A stretch of DNA of 64,000 nt from Candidatus Zixiibacteriota bacterium. Its GTDB lineage: Bacteria > Zixibacteria > MSB-5A5 > SM23-73-2. The stretch spans positions 26,283-90,282 of the forward strand of contig JAUWYR010000003.1 in assembly GCA_030615745.1 (NCBI GenBank), given 5' to 3'. Positions 3,679 to 44,796 of this stretch are shown piece after piece; position 1 is the first letter of the stretch; each line of letters opens with the position of its first letter. The position numbers were made by a program, and so were the translations under genes. The notes under the pieces are model-generated. The model did no database searches and was not told the origin of the DNA. It saw only the letters and a program-made list of their open reading frames with translations.

Positions 3679-3984
3679 ATGGAAGATAAAAAACAGATAG
3701 TAAGAGTGAACATTATGGGAGAGGATTATCCTATAAAAGCTGATGCTGATAGAAGCTATATTTTGCAGGTTGCAAAATATGTAGATTCGAAGATGCAAGA
3801 GGTTGCAAATAGAATCTCAGTTCACTCTCCTGTCAAAGTGGCAGTTTTGGCAGCAATGAATATTGCAGGTGAGCTTTTTAAAGAAAGATTAGATAAAGAC
3901 AAAAGATTATCAGATATAGAGGAAAGAGCACAATCACTTTTACAATGGCTCGATAGTAAGATAATAGAAGAAGATTTGCAATAG
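3679..3984 (+). CDS. zapA: Cell division protein ZapA
   Basis: 101 aa; VRVNIMGEDYPIKADADRSYILQVAKYVDSKMQEVA and VAVLAAMNIAGELF are typical of ZapA. Confidence 0.85.
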   Translation: MEDKKQIVRVNIMGEDYPIKADADRSYILQVAKYVDSKMQEVANRISVHSPVKVAVLAAMNIAGELFKERLDKDKRLSDIEERAQSLLQWLDSKIIEEDLQ

Positions 3985-4010
3985 TTGTAAAAGGGATTTT
4001 TTGCTTTTAA

Positions 4011-4065
4011 CCCCATTTTAGCTTTTTGAGACTTATGTCTCAAAAAAGTTCGAAGTGGGGTTTTT
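4011..4065 (+). terminator. Nested hairpin terminator between zapA and rny
   Basis: CCCCA ... inner hairpin TTTTTTGAGAC/TTAT/GTCTCAAAAAA ... TGGGG followed by TTTTTG. Confidence 0.6.
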
Positions 4066-4082
4066 GTTTTGGAGGTGGAAAG

Positions 4083-5645
4083 ATGAATAGTATTATGTTA
4101 ATCGGGATAATTGGGGTGGTAGCTTTTATAGCTTTTTTTGTGGGATGGTTTATTAGCAGGAGAATAGGGGAGTCAAGATTAGCAAGGGCTGAGGAGCTGG
4201 CTAAAAAAATCATAGAGGAGGCAGAAAAAGAGGCGGAGATCAAGAAAAAAGAAGCAACTCTTGAGGCAAGGGATGAATGGTTTAAAGCCAAATCAAATTT
4301 CGAGAAAGAACTTCACTTTAAAAAAGCTGAGTTTTCCCGACGTGAAAAAAAGCTTTATGAAAGGGAATCCTATCTGGACAGAAAAGTTGATATTCTGAAT
4401 AAAAAAGAAAGGGATGTCCAGAACAAGGAGAGGATATTATATGCCAGGGATAAAGCGATCAACTTTCAGGAAAAAGAGCTCCAAAGATTGATAGCTGCTC
4501 AGAACAAGCAGCTCGAAAGAATAGCTCAGATGAGTCAGGAGGAGGCGAAAAAACTATTGATGCAGAATTTGGAAGCTCAAGCCAGGCAGGATGCTACCCA
4601 AATGATTAAGGAGATAAAAGATAAGGCAGAGCAGACCGCGGAAAAGGAAGCCAAAAATATAATTATCTCAGCAATACAGAGGTGCGCAGCTGATTATACA
4701 GTTGAATCCACTGTCTCGGTAGTGAATCTTCCAAACGAGGAAATGAAAGGGAGAATAATAGGAAGGGAGGGGAGAAATATAAGGTCTTTAGAGACTGAGA
4801 CCGGAATAGATGTTATCGTGGATGATACTCCGGAGGCGGTCATTCTTTCTGGATATGATCCTATCAGAAGGGAGATTGCTAAAATGGCTCTCGAAAGGTT
4901 AGTTATGGATGGACGTATTCATCCCGCACGTATCGAGGAGGTAGTTGCAAAAGCTAAAAAGGAGATGGAGATTTTAATAAGGGAGATCGGTGAACAGGCT
5001 TGCTTTGATGTTGGAATTCACGGTCTTCATCCTGAGTTGATCAAACTTTTAGGGAAACTACACTTCCGCACAAGTTATGGTCAGAATGTCCTGCAACATT
5101 CCAAGGAAGTGGCTTTTTTGGCTGGACTGATGGCAGCTGAGCTGAGCTTAGATGCAAACTTAGCAAAAAGGGCTGGGCTTTTACACGACATAGGAAAAAC
5201 AGTGGATAAGGAGACCGAGGGAACCCATTCCCAGATCGGGTATAATTTAACTTTGAAATATGGGGAGCATCCTTTAGTTTTAAATGCCATTGCTGCCCAT
5301 CATGAGGATGTGCCCCATGAATCTCCCTATTCGGTATTAGTTCAGGCAGCTGATGCCATATCCGGAGCCAGACCAGGTGCTCGCAGGGAGACTTTAGAGG
5401 GGTATATCAAAAGACTGCAGAAATTGGAGGAGCTGGCTGACTCCTTTAAAGGAGTAGCTAAAGCCTATGCCATTCAGGCTGGAAGGGAGGTAAGGATAAT
5501 AGTAGAACATAACTTAGTAGATGATACAAAAGCATCTGAACTCGCCTCTGAAATTTCCAAGAAGATCGAGGCTGAGCTCGAATACCCTGGTCAGATTAAG
5601 GTAACGGTGATTCGGGAGATCCGAGCAGTTGAGTATGCTAAATAG
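4083..5645 (+). CDS. rny: Ribonuclease Y
   Basis: N-terminal TM helix, long coiled coil, KH domain ([15 protein letters not shown]) and HD domain (LLHDIGK). Start moved to ATG 4083, which follows GGAGGTGG. Confidence 0.95.
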
Positions 5646-7963: not shown

Positions 7964-8119
7964 AGATTCTATAAATTTCCAACATTAGCTAAAAGCTTCA
8001 AAAGATCTGTTTGATCTTATTGTAACGAAATTAAAGAAAGGAATTTCTGAGAGAGCAGGGCAGGTTGCCCTGCTTTTCTGTTTATCAGGAACCGAAAATA
8101 GGTCTCTAATTTTTTGTTC

Positions 8120-8780
8120 TGTCAGGAGCTACTCCTGACAGGGGGTGTCAGGTCTGAGGACCTGACACAACATAAAGGGAGGGGATAAACCCCTCCCCTA
8201 CGGGTGGTCAGTGAAAAGAGGCTGGAGATTTGAGAAAGAGAAAAAAGTTCAGTAGACAGTAGTCAGTATACAGTGAACAGTAGACAGAAAACGGGAAACA
8301 GAAAAAAAAACCTTAATATAGTGGCGTCAGGAGTTTCCTCCTGATGCTTTTTCTGTCGGGAGGTAACTTTTGACAGCACTTTGTAAGGAGTGCGATCCCG
8401 CCTTTGGCGGGACGCATGCAATCCATATGGATTGCACTCCATAAAAGGTCAAGGGTGCCCTCACCCTTGACTAACGAGTGTAGCGTCTATGTTAGTGCGG
8501 GAATTGGATTTCCCGCACGGGGGTAAGGTTGGGGAATTCCAATTCCCCAACCAACAAAAAACGTCTGGGATAAACCCAGACGCTACGACTGATCTGGTGG
8601 CACAGAATCCTGACGGGTCAGCCTGCCCGGCCAGGGGGGACCCGGCAGGCACGTAATTTGTCAAGTTGCATCGGGGTACCTTACCCCGATGCAAAAGAAT
8701 AGGAACAGGTTTTCAAACCTGTCCTGGACCCTTAATTTGAGGATTTTGAAAGTAAAGCTGAAGCTTTACACTCCAGAAGA
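8120..8780. repeat. Palindrome island: at least ten consecutive inverted repeats
   Basis: Hairpins read directly, including TGTCAGGAG/cta/CTCCTGACA (8120-8140), GTGTCAGGTC/tgag/GACCTGACAC (8145-8168), GTCAAGGGTG/ccct/CACCCTTGAC (8448-8471), GGTTGGGGAATT/cc/AATTCCCCAACC (8527-8552), CGTCTGGG/ataaa/CCCAGACG (8562-8582), TTGCATCGGGGTA/cct/TACCCCGATGCAA (8666-8694). Confidence 0.85.
8250..8301. repeat. Degenerate 7-bp periodic array
   Basis: cagtaga cagtagt cagtata cagtgaa cagtaga cagaaaa cgggaaa cag. Confidence 0.7.
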
Positions 8781-38103: not shown

Positions 38104-38276
38104 TGGAGTATAAACCTTTAAATAGTTGCGTCAGGAACTCTACTCCTGATGCTTAAAAATGTGTCAGGACTTCCACCGAAGGTGGATCCGCCTTTGGCGG
38201 AGAGGTCCTGACACAACACAAACCTTTAGGTTTATCAAGAAAGATTTTACCAGTAAAGCTGAAGCTTTACACTCCA
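38104..38276. repeat. Composite nested palindrome with a 9-bp direct duplication around the inserted element
   Basis: taAAACCTTTA[38121-38219 insert]AAACCTTTAggtttat; the insert has TIR-like ends GTTGcGTCAGGA / TCCTGACACAAC. Confidence 0.8.
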
Positions 38277-39773: not shown

Positions 39774-39808
39774 TAATTGGGGTGTAAACCTTTAGGTTTA
39801 TAGAGATT

Positions 39809-39859: not shown

Positions 39860-40146
39860 AAACTTTTTAGAATTCAGTATTGGAGTGTAAACCTTTCAGG
39901 TTTACCCACATTTTCTGATGCTTCGGGAATCCGAAGGATGCTTCGCATAGGAATTCCCCAAGCGAATGGGCATCGGCATTTCCTAATACCGATGCATCAC
40001 GAGAATTTTGCAAAAAAGTTAGGAATACATACGAAATGGAGGGATAAAGTAAATAGGTTCGGATTATCTCTTATTTAGAAGGATAAATAAACTAATGTTC
40101 GTTTATTTTAAGTTAGGCGAAATCGCTTTCTAAAGGAGAGGGAAAG

Positions 40147-41088: not shown

Positions 41089-41218
41089 AATAAATAGTTA
41101 AATAGTTGCGTCAGGAGCTCTACTCCTGACGCTTAAAAACATTTTAGCGCAGATTTTATGAGAAATTTAAAGAGTTCTTTAGAGCACCATTGATTGTCGT
41201 ACAAAATAGACCTAATAC

Positions 41219-41277
41219 GTAGGGGAGACCCTTGTGGTCTCCCACTGGTTGGCGGGAGGGGACAAGCCCCTCCCCTA
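41219..41277. repeat. Palindrome with an inserted hairpin flanked by GGGAG duplications
   Basis: gtagGGGAG[accc..ggc]GGGAGgggacaagcccctcccctac; without the insert it is GTAGGGGAGGGG/acaag/CCCCTCCCCTAC. Confidence 0.8.
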
Positions 41278-41358
41278 CAAAAAAGTAAGAATTGTTAGGA
41301 CTTCCACCGAAGGTGGATCCGCCTTTGGTGGAGAGGGGCTGACACAACGCAAATAATT

Positions 41359-41480
41359 GGAGTATCAACCTTTAGGTTGATAAGTAAAGCTGAAGTAGTA
41401 GATCTCCCGCATTTTGCGGGAGGCTTTACACTGCAGGGAATTTTTTCGATTGATAGAGAAAAGATTGAAAAAAAACTTGA
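41359..41480. repeat. Composite palindrome plus promoter-like repeat, copy 1 (with nested insert)
   Basis: ggagtatcaacctttaggttgataagtaaagctgaag + insert tagtagatctcccgcattttgcgggag + gctttacac ... attgatagagaaaagattgaaaaaaaacttga. Confidence 0.8.
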
Positions 41481-42544: not shown

Positions 42545-42736
42545 ATGATTCCGACAATACAGATTCTTTTTGTTTTTCAGCAGTGGGGATTGCCAAGGCA
42601 ACTTCCAACTAAGAAAGCTTTGTAGTTGAAGTAAAATTCGCACTTTTTTGCGGTGGCGTCAGGAGTTTCCTTCTGACGCATGATTTCTCTGTCGGGAGGT
42701 AACTCCCGACAGCACAAAAAAATAGATTTTTATATT

Positions 42737-42831
42737 GGAGTATCAACCTTTAGGTTGATAAGTAAAGCTGAAGCTTTACACTCCAGATAGATTTCTTCCA
42801 ATTGACAGAGAAAAGATTGAAAAAAACTTGA
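42737..42831. repeat. Composite palindrome plus promoter-like repeat, copy 2 (uninterrupted)
   Basis: ggagtatcaacctttaggttgataagtaaagctgaagctttacactcc ... attgacagagaaaagattgaaaaaaacttga. Confidence 0.85.
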
Positions 42832-44686: not shown

Positions 44687-44719
44687 ATATAAGTTTTTTT
44701 TCAGCAAAAGTGTGGCTTT

Positions 44720-44789
44720 TAAATAGTTGCGTCAGGAGCTCTACTCCTGACGCTTGAAAGGGGTGTCAGGACTGAGGTCCTGACACAAC
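44720..44789. repeat. Two-hairpin intergenic element (simple, un-nested form)
   Basis: aaatagttGCGTCAGGAG/ctcta/CTCCTGACGCttgaaagggGTGTCAGGAC/tgag/GTCCTGACACaac. Confidence 0.85.
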
Positions 44790-44796
44790 AACAAAA

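Follow-up and report, generated by a model that had tools for sequence, protein, structure and literature searches.

REPINs are inverted pairs of REPs that occur together with RAYTs (PMC3116915, PMC2817692). The REP heads that have been described are GTAG variants and CGTC (PMC3733652). The tested enzymes cut at CT or CA, and in the proposed model they are guided by the GTAG head; a GTTG head mutant of the Stenotrophomonas REP is not cut by the Stenotrophomonas enzyme (PMC8266576). Elements of the IS200/IS605 type make no larger target duplication (PMC2817692). No report of a GTT-headed family is found in the REP/REPIN literature examined, and one may exist elsewhere. Direct observation of REPIN movement has been lacking so far. 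Here, a GTTG-headed repeat of the uncultured Candidatus Zixiibacteriota bacterium is compared with these systems. The window is the whole stretch of DNA analyzed, 64,000 nucleotides in length, and all positions are numbered from its first letter unless a contig is given.

The 99-bp insert and its host repeat

The features of the window are listed in Table 1. An earlier note, made from the letters of this DNA, claimed that a 99-bp insert lies between 9-bp repeats and splits a palindromic repeat. This is correct, with a pair of AAACCTTTA bounding the insert at 38121-38219. When the insert and one AAACCTTTA are removed, GGAGTATAAACCTTTAGGTTTAT remains, which is the left half of a REP pair; the right half, GTAAAGCTGAAGCTTTACACTCC, is at 38253-38275. 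A pair of this kind is whole at 42737-42784 and related singles are present at 39785, 39881 and 41358, and close paralogues of the host repeat begin at 39881, 41358 and 42736 (the first base of the third is also given as 42737). An uninterrupted TAAACCTTTAGGTTTAT is present, as the note had claimed, but at 39785-39801 rather than 39784-39802. The 99-bp insert interrupts another repeat, because the site without the insert and one AAACCTTTA takes the form of these paralogues. The inverted ends claimed for the insert, GTTGcGTCAGGA and TCCTGACaCAAC, are also found, and each of them folds as a hairpin of its own. The DNA fold has an energy of -30 kcal/mol (z = -7.5).

GGAGTRT-headed REPs, single or paired, are common in the window's genome and its relatives. 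They lie at 38105-38275, 39881-39905, 41358-41380 and 42737-42784, as target or neighbour of the element, and also to the left of the copies on G002 contig C69 and G005 contig C436.

Table 1. Positions of the insert, its host repeat and related copies in the window
Feature	Position	Strand	Basis
Left 9-bp direct-repeat copy, AAACCTTTA	38112..38120	+	target confirmed by uninterrupted paralogues
Right 9-bp direct-repeat copy, AAACCTTTA	38220..38228	+	
REPIN-like insert, 99 bp: two hairpins in inverted orientation and a nested 30-bp insert	38121..38219	+	
Left REP: GTTG head (38125-38128) and CGTCAGGA..TCCTGATG hairpin (38128-38152)	38125..38152	+	fold, alignment
Right REP, inverted: TGTCAGGACT..TCCTGACA hairpin (38160-38215)	38160..38217	-	fold, alignment
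Head of the right REP, CAAC on the + strand	38214..38217		
Double mini-hairpin of 30 bp, TCCACCGAAGGTGGATCCGCCTTTGGCGGA, nested in the right-REP loop	38172..38201	+	
Interrupted target, REP pair of another family, GGAGTATAAACCTTTAGGTTTAT ... GTAAAGCTGAAGCTTTACACTCC	38105..38275	+	comparison with the intact pair 42737-42784
Intact paralogue of the interrupted target (paralogous empty site)	42737..42784	+	
Second copy, split by ~150 bp that include a GTAG-headed REP pair, GTAGGGGAGACC...CCCCTCCCCTAC	41100..41349	+	
Third copy, simple two-hairpin form	44718..44795	+	BLAST, fold, covariance model
Related hybrid pair: left REP GTGG-CGTCAGGAG, right REP CTGTCGGGAGGTAACTCCCGACAGCAC	42653..42714	+	
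Fourth copy, divergent, GTTC-headed	8108..8176 (contig C70:34390-34458)	+	

Copies, anatomy and setting of the family

The earlier note proposed a BLASTN search of the genome. When the 2.28-Mb genome is searched, 58 pieces are found with the long form and 55 with the simple form as query, and the family is real. These pieces, laid out by hand, fall into ~44 places, 27 of them two-ended. The genome holds about 30-45 copies of this two-hairpin mobile repeat, including those that the note had placed at 41100 and 44720. The left hairpin has 18 matches at 3 or fewer mismatches, as compared with none for a reversed control pattern. The family goes far beyond what chance would give.

The element is an inverted pair of REP hairpins, GTTG-YGTCAGGA...TCCTGACR-CAAC. 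Its simple form, TTTAAATAGTTGCGTCAGGAGCTCTACTCCTGACGCTTAAAAAGGTGTCAGGACTGAGGTCCTGACACAACACAAA, contains two strong hairpins in inverted orientation with the GTTG heads outermost, and the REP hairpin written as a single strand is GTTG-CGTCAGGAG...CTCCTGACGC. The termini are alike across copies, being T-rich and then reading AAATAGTTG ... CAAC-RYAAA. The heads in relatives are GTTG, GTTC or GTTT. The inverted hairpin pair is kept in 18 aligned copies from four genomes, in which double changes preserve pairing at 6 of the 19 base pairs. With a covariance model (E up to 0.01), the window's genome has 97 matches, G002 has 59, the sister species G001 has 44 and the others have fewer; many copies are matched on both strands, and the numbers are therefore not copy numbers. 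Identity to the consensus reaches 95-99% in the best copies, suggesting that they moved recently. No match to the element is found in phage records.

The same 30-bp double mini-hairpin is present at the same position of the right-REP loop in at least eight copies at unrelated loci, including the one at 38121, and a 14-15 bp insert of the CCTGGCCGGGCAGG type is present at the same point of the left REP in five copies. Common inserts at common positions of unrelated loci show that the copies descend from one another, and the copies with the 30-bp insert evidently form a subfamily that spread as a unit. In the window, the mini-hairpin TCCACCGAAGGTGGATCCGCCTTTGGCGGA occurs at 38172-38201 and 41303-41332. 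A variant of it is also present in the loop of an unrelated GTAG-type REP (L024, contig C55:4552-4586), so that the mini-hairpin itself may be mobile and aimed at hairpin loops. The CCTGGCCGGGCAGG-type palindrome (14-15 bp) is located in the left hairpin of L002, L003, L004, L025 and L107 and occurs in other places too. Two pairs of copies ~2 kb apart have flanks in common (L114, C61:85485 and 87470; L278, C40:42041 and 43869), as if larger composite repeats had been duplicated.

The copies favour gene ends, the gene setting being based on open reading frames of at least 90 amino acids, not on annotations. The three copies of the window that the earlier note names lie ~11-35 bp past a stop codon in the orientation of the gene. 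Of the 41 copies of this genome that lie between two genes, 23 have the same orientation as both neighbours, 6 are opposed to both and 3 lie between divergent genes. These positions would favour a repeat that is not mobile but is retained by selection at gene ends as a structured RNA or a transcription terminator unit. This explanation is very improbable, since copies are nested in other repeats, a subfamily carries a nested insert, the element is absent at orthologous gene ends in G001, it is linked to a RAYT (see below) and it matches no Rfam family.

Flanking direct repeats

A 9-bp target duplication, as the earlier note described it, is present at the 38112 copy, but most copies lack one. 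This is so for most of the 27 two-ended copies of the window's genome and likewise for most of the 76 from this and related genomes. Thus, of the two features by which the note would have its reading judged genome-wide, consistent termini are found and regular flanking duplications are not. For the 27 copies, the longest direct match is 5.4 bp on average, as compared with 5.2 bp with mismatched flanks, and the anchored within-genome direct-repeat test is borderline (3 copies, p = 0.08). About 5 of the 76 copies carry flanking direct repeats of 9-14 bp, some with a mismatch, at distances of 3-14 from the left end and 2-7 from the right end. Scores of at least 8, 9 and 10 are reached by 6, 4 and 3 of the 76 copies, as compared with 0.93, 0.24 and 0.03 expected, and the permutation p-values are 0.0005, 0.0001 and 0.00005 after several k-mer and scoring settings had been tried. 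The excess is significant only after the addition of 49 copies, 46 of them from related genomes. The excess of flanking direct repeats in a minority of copies is likely to be real. Family-model scores are higher in the copies with direct repeats when all genomes are taken together (p = 0.009), but not when single genomes are taken separately. Inverted repeats across the insertion points are not enriched, and the element thus does not regularly insert into palindromes.

The duplication at 38112 is considered real, though not a trait of the family, and at the 38121 copy the 9-bp repeat probably represents duplicated target DNA. It is possible, though unlikely, that this repeat does not result from the insertion, either because an HUH reaction placed the element, without duplication, between two copies of AAACCTTTA that were already there or beside them, or because the palindrome slipped. 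Palindromes are prone to slippage. Pre-existing copies are suggested by AAACCTTT, which is present to the left of the copies C40a, C52b and C25 without a partner on the right, and by the copy on G002 contig C232, which has the longest exact direct repeat and for which G006 has a second copy of the flank around a different insert. However, with one AAACCTTTA removed, the host repeat has exactly its common form, and the direct repeats exceed chance (4 as compared with 0.24 expected at a score of at least 9, p ~1e-4). This explanation concerns the duplication only and is compatible with a REPIN.

The G002 C232 copy, which is one of the five best, was considered as a proven duplication with near-empty sites in G006 and G008, and was dropped, the same flank being present twice in G006 around the different insert. 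The repeat at this copy may predate the insertion. In G006 (L287, C6:35201-35480), a flank of ~45 bp that includes part of a GTAG-type REP pair lies on both sides of that insert. The insert is located upstream of the gene that in G002 has the element upstream of it.

The RAYT link and comparison with known systems

In G001, which belongs to the same genus, the orthologous gene pair has neither the 38121 insert nor the host palindrome at 38105. The C8:9413 copy is absent from the orthologous intergenic region of G001, and the orthologous intergenic DNA has no element at the exact place of the C27 copy. At the C70 and C8 copies, the intergenic DNA of G001 has diverged too far for the exact bases before insertion to be read. 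The REP-RAYT unit of G001 is itself inserted in a GTAG-type REP pair, which the window's genome has in uninterrupted form. The repeat is evidently real and mobile, and is of a known kind with a variant head.

On contig C24 of G001, a near-identical copy (4303-4374), the best one of this genome, is located directly upstream of a RAYT gene (3742-4287). A matching half-repeat, TGTCGGGACTAGGTCCCGACACAAC, which ends in CGACACAAC, is located downstream, so that the gene is flanked by the same REP in inverted orientation. The protein matches NCBIfam NF047646 with 110.3 bits (cut-off 80) and also Pfam Y1_Tnp, and is thus a REP-associated tyrosine transposase; among solved structures, TnpA-REP (4er8) is its best relative. 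The motifs PEHIHLIVW and VDYIHFNPV, read by eye, agree with an HUH motif and a catalytic Tyr region.

The window's genome contains three Y1 transposases (RAYT genes L077, L078 and L079 on contigs C17, C25 and C65), each flanked by its own, different REP hairpins and none by the REPs of the element. The protein of this genome nearest to the G001 RAYT is 38% identical to it, and its REPs are GTTG-headed and otherwise different. The REP of the C17 RAYT shares its stem, GTCAGGAGC, with the element but has a GTAG head, and therefore cross-mobilisation of the element by the C17 RAYT is conceivable. The cognate RAYT is not found in this assembly (98.6% complete, 74 contigs), and at the locus syntenic to that of the G001 RAYT, a copy of the element is present without the gene. 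The cognate enzyme has therefore been lost or is hidden by a gap of the assembly, or else these hairpins are acted on by a different RAYT. Nearly all RAYTs of 14 related genomes have their own flanking hairpins, and in a tree of 46 proteins several RAYTs with GTT-type heads (assigned by eye) group near the G001 protein.

These results indicate that the element probably represents a GTT-headed REPIN family that is, or recently was, moved by a RAYT (HUH/Y1) on single-stranded DNA. It is a non-autonomous inverted pair of REP hairpins with the GTT(G/C) head outermost on both strands. The RAYT would bind the hairpin on single-stranded DNA and cut near the head, and the strand, excised or copied, would be pasted into a single-stranded target. 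At 38121, one half of another REP pair served as target. We infer this chemistry, and also that the C24 RAYT of G001, or an orthologue since lost, moved the copies in the window's genome. Three findings are against this model. The cognate RAYT is missing although the best copies look recent; the head is GTTG/GTTC, unlike the GTAG/GTGG and CGTC heads of the literature, and a Stenotrophomonas REP with a GTTG head is not cut (PMC8266576); and a 9-bp duplication is unexpected of movement of the IS200/IS605 type (PMC2817692).

The term MITE-like in the earlier note is appropriate for a short, non-autonomous mobile repeat with inverted ends inside another palindromic repeat, but through G001 the element is tied to a Y1/HUH RAYT and is probably a REPIN, not a DDE-derived MITE. 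A classical MITE would have arisen by deletion from a DDE insertion sequence, would carry terminal inverted repeats and would leave a 9-bp target duplication wherever it inserts. The imperfect inverted ends and the clean 9-bp duplication at the 38121 copy are consistent with such an origin, as are the 9-14 bp direct repeats at a few other copies. It is nevertheless very unlikely, because a duplication of fixed length is not seen, most copies having none and its length and distance from the ends varying where it is present; among the copies listed, no pair of element ends encloses a transposase gene and no DDE transposon has these ends; and the transposase that adjoins a copy is of the Y1 type.

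It may further be proposed, as a rather doubtful extension of the REPIN reading, that GTT-headed REPINs form a super-family with a RAYT clade of its own, and that their insertion can leave variable target duplications of ~9-14 bp. If so, the movement would involve staggered cutting or copying of the target, instead of the clean, duplication-free IS200/IS605 reaction. The possible duplications, if confirmed, would constrain the REPIN reaction. In this lineage, many REPIN families have RAYT genes next to them, the GTTG head is one that a tested enzyme rejects, and sister species provide sites that are naturally filled or near-empty, so that head recognition and target handling are testable with one purified enzyme.

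The element resembles MITEs (Correia, RUP) in being small, non-autonomous and intergenic with inverted ends, but differs from them in having neither a DDE partner among the copies listed nor a regular target duplication. It shares with IS200/IS605 the Y1 HUH transposase class, hairpin ends and the lack of a regular target duplication. However, the RAYT proteins pass the REP-transposase cut-off but not the IS200 cut-off, and the ends of the element are two inverted copies of one REP, not distinct left and right ends. Like the GTAG and CGTC super-families, it has a stem-loop with a conserved 5' tetranucleotide and pairs in opposite orientation, and some of those families are inserted in palindromes (PMC3733652). 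The GTAG/GTGG head 5' of the palindrome is not found, and the element appears to be a GTT-headed variant, not a member of the GTAG families, because the head is GTTG/GTTC in nearly all copies. Its stem starts with CGTC/TGTC as in CGTC repeats, but the CGTC lies inside the stem, where it pairs with GACG in the fold, instead of being unpaired at the end of an 8-9 bp stem; CGTC repeats are reported without a dedicated transposase (PMC3733652), whereas the element adjoins one in G001. The REPIN/RAYT systems (Pseudomonas fluorescens GI-GIII, PMC3116915; Stenotrophomonas and enterobacterial REPs, PMC2817692) differ from it in their GTAG/GTGG head, while the element has a spacer of only ~10 bp, occasional flanking direct repeats and no cognate RAYT in the window's genome. 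As in these systems, two short REP hairpins lie close together in inverted orientation, in many and mostly extragenic copies, nested in or next to other repeats, and one copy is located beside an NF047646 tyrosine transposase.
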